DNA of 64,000 nucleotides, from assembly GCF_000191065.1 (NCBI RefSeq), contig NZ_GL872282.1, positions 1,264,198 through 1,328,197 on the forward strand, read 5' to 3'. The notes under the pieces were generated by a model, which saw only the letters and a program-made list of their open reading frames with translations, made no database searches and was not told where the DNA came from. Positions within the stretch are counted from its first letter, which is position 1. Every line of letters starts with the position of its first letter. Position numbers and translations under genes: made by a program. The stretch comes from Prevotella multiformis DSM 16608 (lineage in GTDB: Bacteria > Bacteroidota > Bacteroidia > Bacteroidales > Bacteroidaceae). Below are positions 4,310-60,036 of this stretch, piece by piece.

Positions 4310-4351
4310 CGCTGAAGACAGTCGGAGGACAGGCCGGCGGCTGGGACTGCT

Positions 4352-4437
4352 GTTCCCGACCGGTTGGGAACAGTGCTCCCAGCGGCTGGGAACATCGTTC
4401 CCGACGGCCGGGAATGTGAATCCCGGCGGCAGGCCGG
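4352..4437. repeat. Tandem CCC/GGG dyad array, ~22-bp period
   Basis: Four imperfect units start at 4352, 4375, 4397 and 4419 (spacings 23, 22 and 22). Each is a small inverted repeat, for example GTTCCC-N8-GGGAAC in the first and GTTCCC-N9-GGGAAT in the third. The region just upstream (about 4331-4350) looks like a more decayed unit. The array lies in the gap between the SusCD operon and the thioredoxin gene. Its stems could fold in RNA and weaken read-through, but there is no T-run. Function unknown. Confidence 0.75.
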
Positions 4438-4508
4438 TCTGCTCCAGCCGACAGGATCCGGAACGATCAGAAACAAAAAGATTATAAACCATTTTAATCA
4501 GATTGATT

Positions 4509-11365: not shown

Positions 11366-13891
11366 TTATATCTCCATGTCTTCGCTGTGTGGCCGCTTTG
11401 CCTTTTTGATGATCTGTTGTGTCTCGTTGCCGTTGTTGCCGTGCCGTTCGGGTGCAGGTTGCGGGGCGGTCTCCAGTTCGAAGCCTCCTTCCTCGTTTCC
11501 TTCAGCCCCCTCTTCGGGGACTTCTTCCCCTTGTCCCTGATGATGGTGGCGGGCCGACGATGCGCCGCGCAGCGAATCGGGCAGCTGACGGCGGACAACC
11601 ACCGGCTGGCAATTGTACATGGTCGGGTCTATGTCCTCGTCGGGATCCAACTGCCATTTGGCATGATACTTCTGGAAAGCCTTGTCGCGCATGAGGCTGT
11701 AGATGAACTCTCCACAGACAGGCAGTGCGGTCTTCGACCCCTGTCCTAATGCTCCTGTACGGAAGTGGATGGAACGGTACTCGCCACCGACCCATGCACC
11801 GACGACAAGGTTGGGGCTTACGGCCATGAACCAGGCGTCAGAATGGTTGTTGGACGTACCGGTCTTGCCTCCCCAGTCGGTGTCGTTGAAGATGAAGTGG
11901 CGCAGAGCCTGACTGGTTCCGCCGGCTTCATTCACACCGCCCTTCAGCATCTCCTGCATGAGGAAAGCCGTACGGTAAGGAAGGGCTTTCTCATGGTCTT
12001 TCGGTGCGACATAGACCTCATTTCCGTCTTTGTCGAGGATGCGTGTGACGACGACCGGGACATGATGTTCTCCGTCATTGGCCACGGTACCGTAGGCATT
12101 GACCATCTCCAGCAGGTTCACGTCACTGGATCCGAGAGCCAGTGAGGGCTCGTCGTCCAGCGGACTCTTGATGCCCATGTCCTGAGCAGTACGGATAATG
12201 TTCTTGATGCCCATCTCCTGACCGAGCCGTACTGCCACGGAGTTGATGCTGCGCCCGAAGGCACTCTTCAGCGTGAGGGAGTCGTTGGAGAATCGTCCGT
12301 TGGCATTGTGTGGTGTCCAGGTCTTCATCTGTCCTGTCTTCTTGTCGAGTACCTGCATGCTGATGTACTCATCACGGCGTTTGTCACAAGGTGTAAGTCC
12401 CTGGTTGAAGGCCTCTGAGTAGACGAAAAGCTTGAAGGTAGAACCCGGTTGTCGCTCGGCCACGACCTTGTCATACTTCCACGTCTTGAAGTCGATGTCA
12501 CCCACCCAGGCCCGCACGGCACCTGACTGTGGCTCCATAGCCACCATCGCACAGTGCATGAACTTCACCATGTAACGGATGGAGTCCATGGAAGACATCT
12601 CCTTTTCAATCTGTCCTTTCGCATAGTCGAAGAGCCTTACCTTGTGGGGCTTGTTGAGATAATAAAGCACGCTGTCAGGCTGGCTGGGGTATTTCTGCAC
12701 CAGTTTCTTATAGAACGGCTGGCGTTCCGCGATCCCTTCGATGAAGCCCGGTATCTCATCTCCCTTTGCATCTCGCCATGGCTGCATGCCGCGCCAGTGG
12801 TTGTCGAATTGCTGCTGTACCTTCTCCATCTGCTTTGAGACAGCCTGCTCGGCATACTTCTGCATACGTGTGTCGATGGTGGTGTAAATTCTCAGTCCGC
12901 TGCTGTAAAGGTCGTAGCCGTTGTCCTTCATCCAGTTCTTGAGATAGTCGGCGACATACTCGCGGAAGTACTGTGCCTGTCCCTCATAGTTCTCTTCGAC
13001 ATGTATATCCAGCTTCAGCGGCTGCCGGGAGTATTCGTCATACTCGGTCCGGGGAAGTGCATTATGCGTCACCATATTGTATAATACGGTGTTGCGGCGG
13101 CGTATGGAGTTCTTGGCATGGGTAATCGGATTGTAGTAGGTAGTCGCTTTCAGCATGCCCACGAGTGTCGCGGCCTGGTCGACCGACATCTTTGCAGGAG
13201 TGGTGTTGAAGTAGGTCTTGGCTGCGGTCTTCACTCCGTAGGAGTTGTTTCCGAAGTCGACGGTGTTGGCATACATCGTCAGAATCTCCTTCTTGGAGTA
13301 GATCATCTCCAGCTTTACGGCAATGATCCATTCCTTGCTTTTCATGATGAGCATGCGGAGACCCGGCACATGTCCGAGCAGTCCGGCAGAATACTGCGTA
13401 CGGACACGGAACATATTCTTGGCCAGCTGCTGCGTGATGGTCGACGCACCACGTCCGTCGCCGCGGGTCACTGCATCCTTGATTGCTCCTCCGATGCCCA
13501 TGAAGTCGATGCCGTGATGACTGTAGAAGCGTTCATCCTCTGTACTGATGAGCGCCTTCCAGAAGGCCGGAGTCACTTCTTCATACTTTACCGGTGTACG
13601 GTTCTCCTTGTAGAATCTGCCGATAAGTACCGAATCGGCACTGTATATTTCAGATGCTGCGTAGGTCGGCGGCGTCTTTATTTCCACGAAGCCCGGTGAC
13701 TTCCCGAAGAGCCACAGGAAGTTGATGTCCACCATTCCCAGGTAGAGGAAGATAGCGACAAAGAACGAGACGATGCCTATTGCGCCTTTTGTATACCAGG
13801 CACGCCCTTTATAAAGTCTGGCATACCACGGGAAGAAGTGAATGACACCACGGATAATGCTCCTGATGAACTTTGAGAATTTCTTTACCAT
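11366..13891 (-). CDS. Class A penicillin-binding protein (glycosyltransferase plus transpeptidase)
   Basis: An 841-residue bifunctional peptidoglycan synthase. One membrane helix lies near residues 38-58. The GT51 domain shows EDERFYSHHGID with the catalytic Glu and RGASTITQQLAKN. The transpeptidase domain has GSTFK (SxxK, Ser nucleophile), SIN (SxN) and GGKTGTS. All key motifs are intact. The tail after ~775 is charged, low complexity and ends with KRPHSEDMEI. It polymerises and cross-links lipid II on the outer face of the inner membrane. A second class A PBP is encoded at 26.6-28.9 kb, so the two may divide the work. Confidence 0.95.
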   Translation of the reverse strand: MVKKFSKFIRSIIRGVIHFFPWYARLYKGRAWYTKGAIGIVSFFVAIFLYLGMVDINFLWLFGKSPGFVEIKTPPTYAASEIYSADSVLIGRFYKENRTPVKYEEVTPAFWKALISTEDERFYSHHGIDFMGIGGAIKDAVTRGDGRGASTITQQLAKNMFRVRTQYSAGLLGHVPGLRMLIMKSKEWIIAVKLEMIYSKKEILTMYANTVDFGNNSYGVKTAAKTYFNTTPAKMSVDQAATLVGMLKATTYYNPITHAKNSIRRRNTVLYNMVTHNALPRTEYDEYSRQPLKLDIHVEENYEGQAQYFREYVADYLKNWMKDNGYDLYSSGLRIYTTIDTRMQKYAEQAVSKQMEKVQQQFDNHWRGMQPWRDAKGDEIPGFIEGIAERQPFYKKLVQKYPSQPDSVLYYLNKPHKVRLFDYAKGQIEKEMSSMDSIRYMVKFMHCAMVAMEPQSGAVRAWVGDIDFKTWKYDKVVAERQPGSTFKLFVYSEAFNQGLTPCDKRRDEYISMQVLDKKTGQMKTWTPHNANGRFSNDSLTLKSAFGRSINSVAVRLGQEMGIKNIIRTAQDMGIKSPLDDEPSLALGSSDVNLLEMVNAYGTVANDGEHHVPVVVTRILDKDGNEVYVAPKDHEKALPYRTAFLMQEMLKGGVNEAGGTSQALRHFIFNDTDWGGKTGTSNNHSDAWFMAVSPNLVVGAWVGGEYRSIHFRTGALGQGSKTALPVCGEFIYSLMRDKAFQKYHAKWQLDPDEDIDPTMYNCQPVVVRRQLPDSLRGASSARHHHQGQGEEVPEEGAEGNEEGGFELETAPQPAPERHGNNGNETQQIIKKAKRPHSEDMEI

Positions 13892-18440: not shown

Positions 18441-19661
18441 TCAGAATCGTTGATAACAGAGGTAATATTTACATATTTTTTTAGACAGCAGCTCGATGTT
18501 GAGAATCTCAGAGGCTTCGGTGATGTCCCGTAAAGTGCCGTCTTTGTAAAGTATGCTGATGTGGTCGTCGAAAGGATTGTACATGTCTTTCTGCACCCTG
18601 TCGACCCCCACCAGATAACTGCTGTCGGCAAGGCTCACCCCGTACCGGGCGGCTATCTGTTCCTTCAGCCGGGTCATCTCTCCGGCGGTCGGTTCTTCCT
18701 CCCGTACCTCCACCTTGAAGAGTCTCCGGTTGACGATGTTTGACGACAGGCGTGCGAGAATCCGGTCGTCGTGTTGCTGCCACACCTTCAACGCACTCCA
18801 TATATCGTTGTCGTCCAGAGCGATATAGTTGTCCAAGGCCTCGGCGTGGGTGTGGAACGAGCGGGCCGTGATGTCGTCGTACAGAAAATAACGCAGGGCA
18901 GGTGAAGCGAACAGCTCCGTTCCCGTCCTTGCCAGCTGCTTGGCACGGCGCAGGGCGTTGATGAGGATATGCTCGCAGCCCACGGTGGTCTTGTGCAGGT
19001 ACACCTGCCAGTACATCAGCCGGCGGGAGGTGAGGAAATTCTCGATGGAGTAGATGCCGTTCGACTCCACCACCAGGGCATCGTCCACCACGTTGAGCAT
19101 CTTGATGATGCGTGCCGACCCGATGTTTCCCTCTGTCACTCCTGTGAAGAAACTGTCACGGCGCAGGTAGTCCAGCCGCTCCATGTCGAGCTGGCTGGAA
19201 ATCAGCTGGTGGAGGAACGACTTGGGGTATTCGTTCTTGAAGATGCTGATGGCGAGATTCAGCGCACCGTGCATTTCACGGTTGATGCGGTCCATCATCA
19301 TCAGCGAGATCTCCTCGTGGGTGATGCCGCTGATGAGGGTGTTCTCCAGTACGTGCGAGAAAGGGGCGTGTCCGATGTCGTGCATGAGGATGGCCGCCTG
19401 CACCGCCTCCGCCTCGCTGTCGAAGACGAACACGCCTTTCTGCCGCAGGGAAATGAGCGCCTCGCTCATGAGATGGAATGCTCCTAACGAATGCTGGAAG
19501 CGCGTGTGCTGTGCGCCGGGATAGACCTCCTGCGTGAGTCCCAGCTGCTTGATGCGTGCCAGCCGCTGGAGAAGCGGATGGCGGACGATGTCGAGCAGCA
19601 GGCCTCGCGGTACCTTGATGAATCCGAACACCGGGTCGTTGATGATCTTCGAGTCTGTCAT
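18441..19661 (-). CDS. HD-domain phosphohydrolase (dGTPase-like, COG1078 type)
   Basis: A 406-residue metal-dependent phosphohydrolase. The first metal ligand is in TRFQHSLGAFHLM, the HD pair in ILMHDIGHAPFSHVLE, and a later Asp in QLDMERLDYLRRDS. The family includes dNTP triphosphohydrolases and less characterised enzymes, so the substrate is open. The frame continues 50 codons upstream, but the ATG at 19661 is chosen because a complete promoter lies at 19698-19729 and would be inside the longer reading. It stops 50 bp before lpxD. Confidence 0.9.
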   Translation of the reverse strand: MTDSKIINDPVFGFIKVPRGLLLDIVRHPLLQRLARIKQLGLTQEVYPGAQHTRFQHSLGAFHLMSEALISLRQKGVFVFDSEAEAVQAAILMHDIGHAPFSHVLENTLISGITHEEISLMMMDRINREMHGALNLAISIFKNEYPKSFLHQLISSQLDMERLDYLRRDSFFTGVTEGNIGSARIIKMLNVVDDALVVESNGIYSIENFLTSRRLMYWQVYLHKTTVGCEHILINALRRAKQLARTGTELFASPALRYFLYDDITARSFHTHAEALDNYIALDDNDIWSALKVWQQHDDRILARLSSNIVNRRLFKVEVREEEPTAGEMTRLKEQIAARYGVSLADSSYLVGVDRVQKDMYNPFDDHISILYKDGTLRDITEASEILNIELLSKKICKYYLCYQRF

Positions 19662-19697
19662 CGTGCCTGTTTTGATTTTTCTGTCGTCGTTTGCCTG

Positions 19698-19729
19698 CAA
19701 AGATACCACATAATGCTGTAATGCGCAAA
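19698..19729 (-). promoter_or_regulatory. Promoter of the HD phosphohydrolase gene
   Basis: Minus strand: TTTG (19729-19726), a 20-bp spacer, then TATCTTTG (19705-19698). This matches the Bacteroidetes consensus TTTG-N19-21-TAnnTTTG. It decides the start of the gene at 19661. Confidence 0.8.
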
Positions 19730-19896
19730 ATTCTGTTGCGATTTCTTTGCAGGGCGGCTGTGGGGGAAGTCGCCCCCTCCATCTACTGCCATTCGAGGCA
19801 GTCGGGCACATTGCGAAATATGTTTACAATCCGGGCGGTTCTCACCCTCTCTTTTATCCGTCATGACGAACGGTCTGAGGGCGGAGAACGCTCCCC

Positions 19897-20028
19897 TGTT
19901 CTGCAACATGGCGTTACTTGTGTTCCAATCTGTGCCCGATTGGACTTCAAGGGGTGCTTGTTTGCATGCCGACTGACGGTCGTTTGCACCGCAAGGGGGC
20001 ACCGTTTGAAATGATGATTATAACAGGT
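19897..20028. repeat. 22-bp periodic array, TTG N5 CAA family
   Basis: Six consecutive units of exactly 22 bp begin at 19897, 19919, 19941, 19963, 19985 and 20007. Units differ in sequence but keep a dyad at the same phase: TTGTGTTCCAA, TTGGACTTCAA, TTGCACCGCAA (read from the base before each unit start), usually with GC a few bases later. It lies in the 587-bp gap between two divergently transcribed genes. Besides the two promoters and this array I see nothing else in the gap. Confidence 0.8.
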
Positions 20029-20220
20029 TGTCTGTTAGGTGTTTATGTTGTGCTGGAAAAGCGGATGCGTGACGTTGCTCCTGTTCGGCCCTGATGGGGC
20101 AGGAGGCATGGACGGGCTGTGTTTCAAAGGATCTCCCGGAGGATGATTTTTTATGACAGAATATACGTCTTTCCGTTACTTTATCGGTCATGGTGCCTCC
20201 CATAATCAGGAATATTTTGC

Positions 20221-26096: not shown

Positions 26097-26363
26097 TGTC
26101 CCGGACGATGAGCCTGTTGCCCATCGGCAAATGCTTTTCAGGACTTTCCCGGTTTGAGAAAGTCCCTGATAAAAGCTTGAATCGGCTCTTCTAAAGGTTT
26201 GTATCAGTCCCTGATAAAAGCTTGAGACAATCCTGACATAAGCCTAGGGGGAATCATGGTAGTAGCCTGGCCAGTGCTGGCGAAAGTATGGATTAGTCCG
26301 ATAAAAGTCTGGCAGCTCCGTCATCAACGTGGGATTGTATCCATAAAAGCTTGAGAAAGTCCC
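26097..26363. repeat. Degenerate ~22-bp tandem array, GATAAAAGCTTGA family
   Basis: About twelve units of 21-25 bp run without break. The best two, at 26161 and 26206, share AGTCCCTGATAAAAGCTTGA exactly, two units apart. Others include GGCTCTTCTAAAGGTTTG (26184), AATCCTGACATAAGCCTAG (26229), AGTCCGATAAAAGTCTGG (26295) and ATCCATAAAAGCTTGAG (26339). It fills the 589-bp gap between yebC and the PBP gene, upstream of a bidirectional hairpin. A small GATATG/CATATC hairpin sits at 26037-26051. I see no gene in this gap. Confidence 0.75.
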
Positions 26364-26579: not shown

Positions 26580-28883
26580 TTAGAAGTATTCTTCCTGTAT
26601 GCCGTTCACGTTGATCGTGTCAGCAGCCTGACAGGGATTGAATTTGGGAGGTATGGAAAACTTCGTGTTCTGGCTGTAGCCTAACCGTTTGTCTGCATAG
26701 ATGCTTTGCATGTAATAAGCCCAGACCGGCAGAGCGGTTGTGGCTCCCTGTCCCATTGCGGTGTTGTCAAAGTGGATGTCCCGGTCCTCACCGCCTACCC
26801 AGCAGCCGCTGACGAGATCGGGCGTGATGCCCATGAACCAGCCATCGGCATTGTTGTTGGTCGTACCGGTCTTGCCCCCGATGTCCGCAGTGAGATGATA
26901 AGCGTAGCGCAGCCGGCTGCCCGTACCTCCCTGAATGACGGCACGCAGCATGTCAATCATCTGATAGGAGCTGACTTCCGAGATGACCTCGGTCATCAGC
27001 GGCTGGAACTTTGCGATGACATTCCCATGGCTGTCTTCAATCTTCGTGACGAAGAGCGGCGCACAGCGGATTCCGCCATTGGCGAAGGTGGTATAGGCAC
27101 TGGTCATCTCGCCGACGGATACTTCGCATGGCCCGAGACAGAGCACGGGGCCTGTGTTCTTGTCTATGTCTGGATTGTTCAGACCGAAGTCGTGCAGGAT
27201 ATTGACAAACTGTGACGGTCCGAGCAGATTGATCAGATAAGCTGAAATCCAGTTGTTAGACTGCTGCAAGCCCCACCGCAGCGGCACTTCCTGTCCGTAG
27301 CGGGCGCGTGATCCGTTGCGCGGTGTCCATCCGCCGTAGGTCCGTTGTACATTCGGTGCCAGCGTGCAGGGTGTCATGCCGTTCTGCATGGCAAGTGCAT
27401 AGAGGTAAGGCTTGATGGTCGACCCCACCTGCCGCCTGCCGCCCATCACGACATCATACTTGAAGTGCTGGTAGTCGATTCCGCCCACATAGGCCTTCAC
27501 GGCTCCTGTATGGGGATCCATGCTCATGAATGCGGCACGCAGGAACGACTTGTAGTAGCGGATGGAATCTATCGGAGACATCACCGTGTCTATGTCGCCA
27601 TGATAGGTGAAGAGCGTCATCTCGTGGGGGGTACGGAAGCTGCGCTTGATCTCCTCCGGTGTTGCTCCCTGTTCCTTCATGCGCTGGTAGCGCAGGCTCT
27701 GGCGGCAGGAACGGTTCAGTATCTCTTTGATGGTGCGCCGCGAGATGTTCGACGAGAACGGCGCATTCTTCTTGTAGCGGCTGGCAAGGTTGAACTGTGC
27801 CTGCAGGTAGCCGCCCACATGCTTGCGTACCGCTTCCTCGGCATACTGCTGCATTCGTGTGTCGATGGTCGTATAGATGCGCAGGCCGTCCGTGTTCACG
27901 TTGTAAGGCTCGCCGTTGCGTTTCGTGTTCTTGTTGCACCAGCCGTAGAGCGGATCCTGTTCCCAGGCGATGGAGTCAAGGACGAACTGGCGGTTCTGCC
28001 AGGCCTGGTAGTTCTCCCGTTCGGGTTTCTTCGCCATCATGTACTGCCGGAGGAAAGCCTGGAAATAGTCGGCCGAACCGTTCACAGGCTTGGCCTTTGT
28101 GAAGTGTATGCCCAGCGGCCGCTGCGACAGTTCCGCATATTCGTCCTTCGTGACGTATCCCGACTTCACCATCTGCATCAAGACCACGTTGCGGCGCTGC
28201 ATGCAGCGTCCCGGGTGGCGGAGCGGATTGAACATGGACGGGTTCTTGCAGAGACCCACCAGCAGTGCTGCCTCCGTCACGTTCAGATTGCGCGGCTCCT
28301 TGTTGAAGTAGACATTGGCCGCCCGCTTGATGCCCACGGCATTGTGCAGGAAGTCGAAGTAATTGAAGTACATTGCCAGAATCTCCTCCTTCGTGAAGTG
28401 GCGTTCCAGCTTGACGGCAATGATCCATTCGATGGGCTTCTGCAGGAGGCGTTCCAGTGTGTTGTGTGCCTTTTCCGAGAAGAGCTGCTTCGCCAGCTGC
28501 TGGGTAATGGTCGACCCTCCGCCGGCACTCGCCTGCCGCATCACGCCGCGTTTCACAATGGCACGCCCCAGTGCGATGAAGTCGATGCCAGAATGTTCGT
28601 AGAACCGCTCGTCCTCCGTGGCAACAAGCGCATGGACAAGATGCGGCGACAGGCCGTTGTAGTCGATTGCCACACGGTTGTTGTTGTCCTGGTTCCATGT
28701 TCCGATGAGCTGCTGGTCAGCCGAATAGACCTGTGAGGCGAATTTGTCTATAGGGTTGGAAAGCTCGTCCATGTCAGGCATATAGCCTATCCATCCATTC
28801 CATACGGAAATGAAGAATACGGCGATAAAGCCTAACAGGACTGTCAGGAATCCCCAGAGGAAATGTACGAAATGCCTTCTCAT
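26580..28883 (-). CDS. Class A penicillin-binding protein (PBP1A-like)
   Basis: A 767-residue bifunctional peptidoglycan synthase. One N-terminal membrane helix lies at ~9-29. GT51 motifs are EDERFYEHSGID and GGGSTITQQLAKQ. The transpeptidase has GSTIK (SxxK), SNN (SxN) and GGKTGTTN. All catalytic motifs are present. It shares the architecture of the 11.4-13.9 kb PBP but not its long charged tail. It is divergent from pyrB and served by the promoter at 28903-28933. Confidence 0.95.
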   Translation of the reverse strand: MRRHFVHFLWGFLTVLLGFIAVFFISVWNGWIGYMPDMDELSNPIDKFASQVYSADQQLIGTWNQDNNNRVAIDYNGLSPHLVHALVATEDERFYEHSGIDFIALGRAIVKRGVMRQASAGGGSTITQQLAKQLFSEKAHNTLERLLQKPIEWIIAVKLERHFTKEEILAMYFNYFDFLHNAVGIKRAANVYFNKEPRNLNVTEAALLVGLCKNPSMFNPLRHPGRCMQRRNVVLMQMVKSGYVTKDEYAELSQRPLGIHFTKAKPVNGSADYFQAFLRQYMMAKKPERENYQAWQNRQFVLDSIAWEQDPLYGWCNKNTKRNGEPYNVNTDGLRIYTTIDTRMQQYAEEAVRKHVGGYLQAQFNLASRYKKNAPFSSNISRRTIKEILNRSCRQSLRYQRMKEQGATPEEIKRSFRTPHEMTLFTYHGDIDTVMSPIDSIRYYKSFLRAAFMSMDPHTGAVKAYVGGIDYQHFKYDVVMGGRRQVGSTIKPYLYALAMQNGMTPCTLAPNVQRTYGGWTPRNGSRARYGQEVPLRWGLQQSNNWISAYLINLLGPSQFVNILHDFGLNNPDIDKNTGPVLCLGPCEVSVGEMTSAYTTFANGGIRCAPLFVTKIEDSHGNVIAKFQPLMTEVISEVSSYQMIDMLRAVIQGGTGSRLRYAYHLTADIGGKTGTTNNNADGWFMGITPDLVSGCWVGGEDRDIHFDNTAMGQGATTALPVWAYYMQSIYADKRLGYSQNTKFSIPPKFNPCQAADTINVNGIQEEYF

Positions 28884-31377: not shown

Positions 31378-31549
31378 CGATAAAAATCAGGATTGTCTCC
31401 CCTTTCCATGCGAAATTCCGGGTTCTTCCGTTAAATGGATAGATGGGAAACAGGATAAAGGCTTATTCACTTGCAGGGTATGACTATACAAAATCAGATG
31501 GTCTTACAAAGGGGGTAAACTACGGGATAAAAATTCAAAAAAAGTAAAT

Positions 31550-31986
31550 AGATATGCTGCCTGTCCATCGGCGTGTCTTTCCGTCTTCCACAGACAACTT
31601 ATTCCCCTATCATCGGTATTTGTAAACTGTTTTCATGCAACGCAAGGCAACACATGCCCTTTTAGCTTTTAAAAGGTGTCTGATTGACTTGCAACTGATG
31701 CTCTTTTAGCGTGTTACCAACGCCCTTTTGAAGTCCAATCAGGCACCTGTCAGAAATGACTTAATAACCAATTGATCGACTGCCGGTTACCAACCTGCTT
31801 TTTGCACGTGTTTTTTATATTTGCAGATGATTTGTTTGGAATTATGTAATGGTTTTTCAAAACCTTGTCTGTATGCCCAACATATTAAAATGAAAAGGTT
31901 TTTGTAACAAAGGATGATGACAGGATGGACAGTTGACATCCTTGGCTATGTTTTTGTTGAATGAATGACTTCGGTTCTTTCGTTAA
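31550..31986. repeat. Dispersed ~430-bp element, copy 1 (carries a 22-bp array)
   Basis: This stretch matches 59196-59612 in inverted orientation at roughly four-fifths identity by eye. It is noncoding. It contains a 22-bp periodic array at ~31660-31769 (exact 22-bp units at 31704, 31726 and 31748). Near 31815-31870 is its most conserved part, about 45 bp almost identical in both copies, with a TATATTTG promoter-like box. The right edge falls within a few bases of the cut-off exporter gene. TTCTTCCGTTAAATG at 31423 and a related TTCTTTCGTTAAGG at 31975 lie near its two ends. The 637-bp gap from 31352 holds nothing else I can name. Confidence 0.8.
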
Positions 31987-31988
31987 GG

Positions 31989-32957
31989 CTATGTGAGGAA
32001 GACGGCAAAGATACCGAGATTATAGACTGCCAGCACAACACCGAAGACAAGGAAGGTAAAAAATGAGAAAAGCAAACTAAGACTGCTCGATGTGAGGAAC
32101 TGCTCAACCCGCCGATGGTCTTCAATGCGTTGCAAAAGGTCGCCCATCAGCTTGGTATCGAAGAACTTCATCGGTAGTTTCATCAGCTTGATGAAGAAGT
32201 CTGATATGAGCGAGATGTTGATACGGGTGGAGATGTGCAGGAGTATCTTTGAGCGGATAAAGTCAATGGCGGTACGACTGAAAAGAAGCATCATCTCTGC
32301 CAGCAGCACCAACCACACAAAGCCGACATCCTTTCCCCCTATACCTGTATCTACAATAGCTTGGGTGAGGAACGGGAAGACAAGTTGCAGGAGTGAGCCG
32401 AGTAACAAACCGAGAATGAGTTGCGTAAAGAAACGCTTGTATTTCTTGAGATAGCTCCAGAGAAATTTCACTCGCCTTTGAGTCGGCACTGCTTTCGTAT
32501 CGTTTTGAGCATAGAATTGTTCTGTTGGTTCGAGGAGAAGAGCAATACCTTTCTCCTCGCCATTGGTCTTGGTGCTTATCCAATGCTCGCAGAACTCCTC
32601 CTTGGTATAGGTTATAAGTCCTTTTCCAGGATCTGCCACATAAACTTCATATCGATTACCTCTGCGTTTCTTTATCTTATAAACAACCACAAAGTGGTTC
32701 TGGTTCCAATGAATGATGCAAGGTAAGGGAACTTCTGACGTAAGCGTGTCAAAACTCAAACGACCACCGATAGTTTTAAAGCCTATCTCCTCTGCTGCTT
32801 TGCTGATACCAAGAAGAGACACTCCATCTTTGCCTAAGGAACAGATTTTCCGCAATTGCTCCTTATCAGCTTGCTGTCCATAATGTTTGGCTATCATTGC
32901 CAAACAGGAAGGACCGCAATCCATAGCATCTCGCTGTCGTTTTATTGCAAAACTCAT
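31989..32957 (-). pseudogene. Peptidase-containing ABC exporter (C39), truncated in the membrane domain
   Basis: Only the first 322 residues of a ~700-residue peptide exporter (PCAT) remain. The C39 leader peptidase is intact, with catalytic Cys14 (MDCGPSCLAM), His88 (NQNHFVVV) and Asp109 (YVADPGKG). It is followed by the first membrane helices (from ~170), and the frame ends at GIFAVFLT within the membrane domain. The nucleotide-binding domain is missing. Such proteins cut double-Gly leaders and export RiPPs or bacteriocins. The ATG at 32957 is chosen over a TTG four codons earlier. The truncation point abuts the dispersed element. AT-rich, unlike the flanks. Confidence 0.88.
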
Positions 32958-47333: not shown

Positions 47334-47752
47334 AGCTGGTAGAGAAGGCGAAAGATGCTGCATGAATGATGCGATGAAGAACCGGCTTGATCCCCGTCAA
47401 TAGCGGCCAGGCATGGATTTTTAGATCATGCTTATAGGGCATGTCAGACAGATTTGGCGGGAAGAGGCCTGAAAAAGGACAGGCAGCCGGTGTGGTTCGG
47501 GAACAGGTAGGCAATGTGCGTTTGGGAAAAATATGGTGGAAACCGTAAATCGAAGAGGCAGATTCCGCATACATTTCCCTTAATTTTCTGTTGTAAAAAA
47601 TTACCACCTGAATCCGGGATTCTTCAGTAGGATATGGATATGTTTTGGTTTTGAGCGGAAGCGGTGTCTTTATAAGTGCCAGACTGTTCGCATGGGATTT
47701 GCAAACCGCTTGTAATCAGCGGAGTGTACGCCTGATTTTAAAAGATGCCTGA

Positions 47753-47862
47753 TTGTGTTGCAAACGGGCGTTGGTTGGCCTGCAACTAAGCATCCCTTGA
47801 AGCCCAAGGAGTGCTTGGTTGGATGTCAACTGACGGCATATTGAAAACCAGATGATTCTTTG
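47753..47862. repeat. 22-bp periodic array, TTG N5 CAA family
   Basis: Five exact 22-bp units start at 47753, 47775, 47797, 47819 and 47841. Four of the five keep the dyad: TTGTGTTGCAA, TTGGCCTGCAA, TTGAAGCCCAA, TTGGATGTCAA; the fifth is TTGAAAACCAG. This is the clearest copy of the family. Confidence 0.85.
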
Positions 47863-59085: not shown

Positions 59086-59199
59086 TTCTTCCGTTAAATG
59101 TGTAGATGTCTGTCATGTAGTGCATCTTACCTGACGGAAGAGCTTTTTGTTCTTCTGTTAAATGTGTGGATGCTTTTCGTGTTGCTTTAACGGAAGAGC
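59086..59199. repeat. Two tandem stem-loop repeats (TTCTTCCGTTAAATG)
   Basis: TTCTTCCGTTAAATGTG at 59086 recurs with one change at 59150. Each is followed 45-55 nt later by CGGAAGAGC. In unit 1, TCTTCCGT pairs with ACGGAAGA (59134-59141). In unit 2, TCTTCTGTTAAA pairs with 59186-59197 with one G-U. The same core occurs at 31423, left of the other dispersed element. These repeats directly adjoin element copy 2. Confidence 0.7.
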
Positions 59200-59612
59200 C
59201 GAAGTGATTCATTCAACAGAAACATAGCCAAGGCCGTCAACTGGCTATTCTATCCTCCTCCGATATAGGATCCTTCTCATTTTAATACGTTGGAAATACA
59301 GATAAGATTTTGAAAAACCATTACATAATTTCAAACAAATCATCTGCAAATATAAAAGGAACGTGTAAAAAGCAGGATTGTAACCGGCCGTCAATCAGAT
59401 GGTTATAAAGCCGTTCGTAAAAGGTGCTTAATTGGACTTCAAAAGGGCGTTAGTAACACGCTAAAGGAGCGTCTGTTGCAAGTCAATCAGGCATCTTTTA
59501 GAAGCCAGAAGAGCATGTGTCAGCTTTGAACTGCATAAAAATGTTTACAGACACCGATGATATGGGAATGAGTTGTCTGTGGAAGACGGAAAGGCATACT
59601 AATGGACAGACA
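59196..59612. repeat. Dispersed ~430-bp element, copy 2 (inverted)
   Basis: Inverted copy of 31550-31986. It contains a 22-bp array at ~59401-59511 (units at 59401, 59423, 59445 and 59466) and the conserved promoter-like block. The 1465-bp gap (59019-60483) also holds the terminator, the stem-loop repeats, a small RNA unit at 60037-60159, and a stem CTTCAGA/TCTGAAG plus GTCT/AGAC at 60222-60270. Between 59613 and 60036 I see nothing I can name. Confidence 0.8.
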
Positions 59613-60036
59613 TCGTATCAATTTGTCTTTTCTGCATTTTATCTTGTAGTTCATCCTCTTCTGTAAGGTTCTGTTCTGACAGGGTTCTGTGATGTACCCG
59701 ACTGCCGCAGGGGTTTCACGGACGAGGCGGACGGTGCCCGGGAAGCGGGCGGATTCATTCCGACCGTATAAATTCATCCGGGTCTTACGGATGGAAAAGG
59801 GCTTGAAAAGCCTTGGACGCTTTGTTTGTCTACCATTCATCAAACTGTCCGTCTGCGGAGGCACTCCGAGGGAAGAACAGCTGTCTTCCACAGAGGTACA
59901 AATGGTGCAGAGATAAAGGCGGCTCAGATTCGTCAGGAAAAGAAACGCAGTGAAGAGCGGGAGCATGTGTTGTGTTTCCCTTTTTTGCAGACAGGTAGGT
60001 AGTCTCTTTATAATCAGTTTTGGATCCGGTTGAAAC

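Follow-up and report, generated by a model that had tools for sequence, protein, structure and literature searches.

Results

Phased arrays in the P. multiformis window

The window, by which we mean the whole 64-kb stretch of Prevotella multiformis DNA that was analyzed, contains two standalone arrays of TTG-N5-CAA dyads (arrays A and B), two arrays embedded in copies of a MITE, and a further intergenic 22-bp array built on another dyad (Table 1). Within it 24 TTG-N5-CAA sites were counted. The best five-unit chains at 22-bp steps, those at 47753 and 19896, had 1 and 2 mismatches of 30, respectively; when the window was simulated 20 times with a first-order Markov model, the lowest count per simulation was 9 to 12, so that both chains lie far beyond chance. 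The earlier note on this DNA had described five 22-bp units at 47753, and these are upheld, with dyad mismatches of 0, 0, 0, 0, and 1. The six exact units it placed at 19897 were reduced to five good dyads starting at 19896 (1, 0, 0, 1, and 0 mismatches, of 6 each), the supposed sixth, at 20006, having 3 mismatches. None of the arrays at 19896, 47753, 31660, and 59401 was reported by Tandem Repeats Finder, and arrays A and B did not reach the plain lag-22 identity threshold when the window was scanned in 88-bp stretches because their cores differ and the repeating part is the dyad frame. Over lags 19 to 25 of the 88-bp scan, only lag 22 passed, at 4316-4476 and 59395-59530. The array at 4334-4458 has the same geometry as the TTG-N5-CAA family, its kinship with that family being unproven, and 22-bp arrays with further dyads (AACAC-N5-GTGTT and RCAC-N5-GTGY) were also seen in L020 (2060-2203) and L041 (1937-2064).

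Table 1. Positions of the phased arrays and associated features in the window, and of an array at an orthologous locus of genome G006
Feature	Position	Strand	Description
Further intergenic 22-bp phased array	4334-4458	.	Dyad GGGAA-N5-TTCCC; absent from the list of the earlier note
Array A, standalone	19896..20005	-	Five TTG-N5-CAA dyads: 19896, 19918, 19940, 19962, 19984
Terminal core of array A	19995-20005		GGTGC type on the minus strand
Head flank of array A	20006..20071	-	YTG-N5-CAR dyad in 22-bp register, then TTA core
MITE copy 1	31421..31989	-	Exact 17-bp terminal inverted repeat at 31421-31437; other end undetected beyond ~31989
Phased array, center of MITE copy 1	31660..31769	-	
Head flank of array B	47676..47741	+	Alignment with heads of other P. 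multiformis arrays
Array B, standalone	47742..47851	+	Terminal core 47742-47752; dyads 47753, 47775, 47797, 47819, 47841
MITE copy 2	59148..59667	+	Terminal inverted repeat at 59148-59164 with 2 mismatches; right end degraded
Phased array, center of MITE copy 2	59401..59511	+	
G006 array	L298 2819-2950		Just upstream of the orthologue of the array-A neighbor gene; AACCTATGGTT cores

Unit, core, and head of the arrays in the P. multiformis genome

A three-dyad pattern with at most 2 mismatches matched 70 sites in P. multiformis, some of them in MITE copies, compared with 3 for the control. The unit can be written as TTG-N5-CAA plus an 11-bp linker or, equally, as a CAA-N11-TTG site of 17 bp followed by a loose spacer of 5 bp. 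Its core is species-specific and is found in either orientation; the P. multiformis core pattern CAANNGGGCGTTNNTTG had 23 matches in its own genome and at most 1 in each of 21 others. The bases between the dyads had been said to vary freely, a description that does not hold for P. multiformis, where these 11 bp follow a small vocabulary (GGGCGTT, GGTGCTT, and AGGCCTT, either way around). The period was examined in 305,646 bases of P. multiformis, a sample chosen largely around arrays and with some locus overlap, in which lag 22 gave 21 hits (one of them a run of N) versus 1 to 4 for each of the remaining lags between 15 and 30. With a 5-bp center, four-dyad runs numbered 13 (12 distinct) at a period of 22 and 0 to 4 at other periods; among the other combinations, center 9 with period 27 gave 8 runs and center 7 with period 22 gave 6. 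Along the unit, GC peaks near positions 1, 9, 17-18, and 22, and the AT content does not follow a plain 11-bp wave. On one side the P. multiformis arrays have in common a loose head, in which a dyad in register is followed by a TTA core. When the heads were aligned in 24 rows, with array B entered twice, the core of this flank had T in 21 rows and A in 19; the flank resembles a promoter at most.

The MITE carrying two of the window arrays

The arrays at 31660 and 59401, which had been listed as separate related arrays, proved to be the centers of inverted copies of one dispersed MITE of ~600 bp. The two window copies are 84% alike over 269 bp, and both TTG and CAA are kept in every second unit only of their arrays. 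The array at 59401 had at least 40 matches in P. multiformis, that is, itself and 39 others, the 31660 copy not being among the matches listed. A consensus of ~600 bp was built from 41 copies, comprising the 39 other loci and the two in the window. The ends of the element are a 17-bp inverted repeat (TIR), GGTTCTTCCGTTAAATG, with 51 exact sites genome-wide and none in the reversed control; neither of the window copies has both of its ends complete. Perfect 8-bp target duplications were found in 6 of 24 pairings of ends 540-640 bp apart (two of the 24 are alternative pairings in the same locus), with a mean of 5.3 of 8 positions. Such 8-bp duplications are typical of ISL3, and we take the ends and the duplication of the MITE to be ISL3-like. 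A remnant of an ISL3 transposase lies ~300 bp inside one TIR (C1:457657), and ISL3 is therefore the likely parent family. The best ISL3 gene (C2:523014) had no matching TIR within 1.5 kb on either side. In L041 (G000 C1:457100-460700), a MITE copy split by ~1.2 kb contains a remnant of an ISL3 transposase and is perhaps a relic of the parent element. Among the 41 copies, a sample biased by having been found through the array, the variability of the spacers (0.147) was not greater than that of TTG/CAA (0.163), so that ongoing selection on the sites is not apparent in this sample. Rfam returned no match at the gathering score for the window and three MITE loci.

Similarity of units, folding, and slippage

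The similarity of units was compared within and between arrays. For the 5-bp spacers the values were 2.30 within versus 2.35 between arrays in P. multiformis (25 arrays) and 2.56 versus 2.73 in P. koreensis (32 arrays); for the 11-bp cores they were 6.12 versus 5.80 and 7.56 versus 7.55, respectively. Similarity within arrays being about the same as between them, the units do not derive from recent tandem duplication, yet they are under some constraint. Self-complementarity of the spacers at positions 2-4 was below expectation in P. koreensis (0.24 observed, 0.44 expected), with a weaker deficit in P. multiformis (0.30 versus 0.39). Arrays folded better than Markov shuffles (z of -2.2 and -3.1); against arrays with permuted units there was no gain (mean z of +0.08 and +0.26). 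The similarity pattern, together with folding that is no better than that of permuted arrays, fits double-stranded sites and not a slipping satellite or a hairpin. These two comparisons also sustain the claim that spacing and dyad are conserved while the sequence drifts. On the basis of unit similarity, a slippage minisatellite was rejected for P. multiformis and P. koreensis, though not for every species; adjoining units are identical in some other Prevotella arrays, e.g., L147, L207, and L245. A hairpin or RNA function was ruled out as the main reading by folding against permuted units, by the orientation counts, and by the spacers. Complementary cores do occur in single arrays, nested in L232 and as an outer pair in L240 of P. 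pallens.

Genomic context of the arrays

At the place of array A, a TTG-N5-CAA chain was present in 0 of 20 same-genus orthologue loci, the best three-dyad chain in these loci having 5 or more mismatches of 18. A lag scan free of any assumed dialect revealed a clear array of another dialect, with AACCTATGGTT cores, in the orthologue locus of G006; doubtful 22-bp repeats lie upstream of the same orthologue in G010 (L291) and G004 (L289). Most of the orthologous places are without an array. At a threshold of 36-of-66 identity, lag 22 passed in 5 of 21 orthologue loci that had not been picked for arrays, and each other lag from 15 to 30 passed in 0 to 3. The place of array A, a single gene locus and hence a small sample, may perhaps have been refilled in other species more often than expected. 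For the ORF at 18441-19811 of the window, matches to same-genus orthologues start mostly at residues 43 to 54, which suggests that its true start codon is probably ~50 codons downstream of the listed one.

The gene context was classified roughly, the simple gene finder used being one that misses genes: the 24 P. multiformis arrays were in tandem (10), convergent (6), divergent (3), and unclear (5) settings, and the 32 P. koreensis arrays, classified with the same reservation, were in tandem (12), divergent (7), convergent (6), and unclear (6) settings, with one of the 32 inside a low-confidence ORF. Since arrays are found in all kinds of intergenic context, no particular regulatory role is indicated, and a role as terminator or operator was rejected on these rough counts. 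A common end motif, TTTGTAA, was likewise discarded, as its inward occurrences barely exceeded the outward ones (3 versus 1 of 48 flanks in P. multiformis, 1 versus 0 of 60 in P. koreensis, and 7 versus 3 of 213 in the named loci). A longer end motif taken from G084 was enriched inward in G084 alone (14 versus 5 of 18); elsewhere its inward and outward counts were 1 versus 6 of 44 in P. multiformis, 1 versus 0 of 60 in P. koreensis, 4 versus 11 of 211 in the named loci, and 2 versus 6 of 55 in the genus loci.

Distribution and dialects

Absence from related genomes, which the earlier note had named as an outcome that would refute its reading, was not observed; the array pattern was matched in 54 of 100 genomes of the genus (P. 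multiformis included), with up to 304 sites, and among the 51 high-quality genomes it was matched in 33 and not matched in 18. Pattern counts exceeded those of the reversed control in 34 of the 100 genomes, the control exceeded the pattern in 42, and 18 had at least 10 pattern sites at 5 or more times the control. Five clusters of control sites in G058 and G089 proved to be arrays on this 22-bp frame, in which the cores are AAC-N5-GTT and TTG/CAA is weaker. As these control sites are themselves arrays, the pattern counts understate the family and mix dialects. The stretches sampled from G072, G097, G003, G018, G095, G007, and G038 held no arrays that would account for the control hits of these genomes. 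P. koreensis yielded 190 four-core windows versus 2 for the control. Its 32 distinct arrays have mostly four sites (20 arrays) or five (8 arrays), and its core, ATTGGGCGAAA, occurs in both orientations, neighboring pairs being in the same orientation 53 times and in opposite orientation 27 times.

In the named collection, the exact four-dyad pattern was present in at least 117 stretches; the titles among the matches listed were 94 of Prevotella, Prevotellaceae, Leyella, Segatella, or Hoylesella, many from few genomes, with 7 Bacteroidaceae MAGs and 16 others making up the remainder. Several of the matches outside Prevotellaceae are plain tandem repeats (L189, L213, and L224). The exact four-dyad array was also encountered in six viral-contig stretches (L353-L358) when the whole viral collection was searched. 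In a sample of the order, 45 of 198 genomes matched, and beyond P. multiformis at least 10 sites were found only in G169, G189, G218, and G244; many of the single hits from the order's other families resemble matches due to chance or to coding sequence. The period is 11 bp in G189 and G244 and both 11 and 22 bp in G169, and the single arrays of G264 (same family) and G223 have a period of 22, not 11. Arrays with an 11-bp period in other families of the order (L368-L372, L375, L378-L380, L382, and L383) repeat, for example, TTGTCATTCAA or TAGAAATACAA on a frame like T-W-G-N5-C-W-A, and L376, L377, and L381 have a period of 22 instead of 11.

Relation to PINSR

PINSR of P. intermedia is a 188-bp intergenic non-coding repeat with 177 and 184 copies in two strains and a copy downstream of tnaA in ATCC 25611, and the text of its report describes it as specific to one clade (PMC4755523). 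In G084, conservation over 29 copies delimits an array element of ~189 bp (about -71 to +117 from the array start), which agrees with the length of PINSR, and an array lies ~270 bp after a 459-aa PF01212 ORF, a probable tnaA, in agreement with the tnaA placement; the best PF01212 locus of G017 has no array. We infer the identity of PINSR with the G084 element because the PINSR consensus is printed only as a figure in the report (PMC4755523). On these features, PINSR is very probably one dialect of the 22-bp array family, the center of the G084 element being itself a 22-bp array. The 188-bp PINSR sequence is not common to the window arrays, whose cores and flanks differ and which share only the 22-bp architecture. 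Arrays whose cores differ were seen in P. pallens (L240) and P. corporis (L230); both species were in the PCR panel for PINSR but are not among the four positive species given in the text (PMC4755523). Among the 29 PINSR-like copies of G084, variability was 0.24 for the middle three spacer bases, 0.14 for the cores, and 0.00 for TTG/CAA, the last being partly forced by the search. The linker types were in the usual order in 19 of these copies and in exchanged order in 8, with a variant core in 2, and the exchanged order suggests modular reshuffling.

Searches of a set of open-access papers turned up PINSR and BrickBuilt; among the matches listed, none described the present 22-bp family. The earlier note knew of no named element of this form; PINSR very probably is one version of it, although the phased unit, here 22 bp, does not figure in the text of the PINSR report (PMC4755523).

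Discussion

Proposed reading of the arrays

We tentatively propose, at a probability of roughly 0.45, that the window arrays belong to a family, spread across Prevotella and dispersed between genes, of site arrays for a putative sequence-specific protein that binds double-stranded DNA. An array usually comprises four or five 17-bp sites (CAA, then an 11-bp core that is particular to the species and lies either way around, then TTG) set 5 bp apart, and recurrence every 22 bp, about two helical turns, would bring the sites onto one face of the DNA. The geometry, the dispersal, the dialects, the tolerance of either orientation, and the carriage by a MITE are established by the results above. Beyond these, we infer that each site is bound as double-stranded DNA by this protein, that neighboring sites are filled together by cooperative binding, and that such binding has an effect. 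The core would drift between species along with the specificity of the protein, and the 5-bp spacer, not being read, would stay loose. The arrays would spread inside small mobile elements, an ISL3-like MITE here and very probably the 188-bp PINSR in P. intermedia, and their units would persist after the flanks of the mobile element decay. Arrays of protein sites would account for the frame, CAA/TTG, the core, the spacer, the dispersal, and the lack of extra hairpin pairing, all from one assumption. Our confidence in this reading stays below one half, in part because ongoing selection is not apparent in the MITE copies.

Comparison with known systems and alternative explanations

REP/BIME sequences, and REPINs with their RAYT transposases, form hundreds of dispersed intergenic palindromic sites whose sequence is particular to the species. 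The Prevotella arrays are likewise dispersed, intergenic, and species-particular in sequence but differ in their strict 22-bp tandem phasing. The Y1 transposase (PF01797) was hit in 63 of 100 genomes, including the array-rich G061, G006, G028, and G044, and gave 0 hits in the array-rich G000, G084, G017, G046, and G039. A REP/RAYT system was rejected, as array-rich genomes without PF01797 indicate that the REP transposase is not required.

The arrays could instead be neutral minisatellites that slippage has amplified within non-autonomous mobile elements and that serve no function in the host. BrickBuilt of P. gingivalis offers a parallel, being a MITE that contains intergenic short tandem repeats; it has a 23-nt unit, IS5-type ends (GAGACC...), and similar tandem copies (PMC4596501), in contrast to the 22-bp unit, 17-bp TIR, and 8-bp duplications of the MITE described here. 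Two of the four window arrays inside a MITE, the lack of an array at most orthologous places and of a match in 18 of 51 high-quality genomes, and the identical neighboring units of L147, L207, and L245 all agree with neutrality. Neutral mobile carriage covers the dispersal but not the similarity pattern, as neighboring units in P. multiformis and P. koreensis resemble each other little more than they resemble units of other arrays, the TTG/CAA frame recurs across species despite differing cores, and lag 22 stands out against 21 and 23; we consider the neutral explanation unlikely. Somewhat less probable still are wrapping sites for gyrase or a nucleoid protein, at which phase would be read rather than exact sequence. 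The E. coli gyrase motif spans ~130 bp with a 10.75-bp GC rhythm, and BIME-2, as described in the same source, is dispersed and intergenic like the arrays (PMC6379681). Wrapping would also suit the exact two-turn phasing, the other dyads at the same 22-bp spacing in P. multiformis, and the 11-bp phased arrays of other Bacteroidales. It covers the frame but not the species-specific cores, which exceed the needs of indirect readout, and the AT content along the unit is at odds with it.

A transcribed, structured element, in which complementary units would form hairpins that act as terminators or RNA stabilizers, appears improbable. The folding advantage over Markov shuffles, the complementary cores of L232 and L240, and the promoter-like head adjoining the P. 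multiformis arrays speak for such an element, but the advantage vanishes against permuted units, neighboring P. koreensis cores favor the same orientation, the spacers avoid self-complementarity, Rfam gave no gathering-score match for the window and the three MITE loci, and gene 3' ends are not preferred. The geometry also recalls plasmid iterons of the Rep_3 type, which are tandem sites spaced about two turns; those of RK2 are 17 bp with 5-6-bp spacers. In contrast to iterons, the Prevotella arrays are dispersed over the chromosome, have mixed orientation, and as a rule have no linked Rep gene. The idea that they serve a Rep_3 replication initiator as iteron-like sites spread through the chromosomes is largely refuted and merits almost no credence: the geometry is shared and 22-bp direct repeats are present at the Rep_3 loci of G046, G010, and G063, but these repeats are not TTG-N5-CAA arrays; the Rep_3 locus of G084 is ~0.9 kb from an array, but G084 is full of arrays; Rep_3 was found in 6 of the 16 genomes tested and not in the array-rich G028, G044, G055, G075, and G039; and neither P. 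multiformis Rep_3 locus has an array.

Implications of the array family

The reading as arrays of protein-binding sites might be extended to a genome-wide site system, in which a putative fast-evolving protein, perhaps a nucleoid organizer, would read hundreds of arrays through a species code on the 22-bp frame, the 11-bp Bacteroidales arrays being older or parallel forms; we regard this extension as rather doubtful. PINSR, a repeat thought special to one clade, would become one member of a genus-wide class, one that similarity searches miss, as conservation is confined to the frame. Should a protein read the arrays, the comparison of species would show its specificity and hundreds of sites changing together; if nothing reads them, they are a clean case of spacing that persists while the sequence turns over.

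Other repeats

The 22-bp direct repeats adjoining the Rep_3 genes of G063, G046, and G010 (L395, L396, and L397) are probably true iterons. In the window, 11366-13891 and 26580-28883 are similar minus-strand genes 15 kb apart, presumably paralogues, and account for repeat families D1, D2, D4, D11, and D12. An intergenic stretch at 26151-26225 holds two copies of GGTTTG...CCCTGATAAAAGCTTGA, 45 bp apart and 87% alike over 30 bp.
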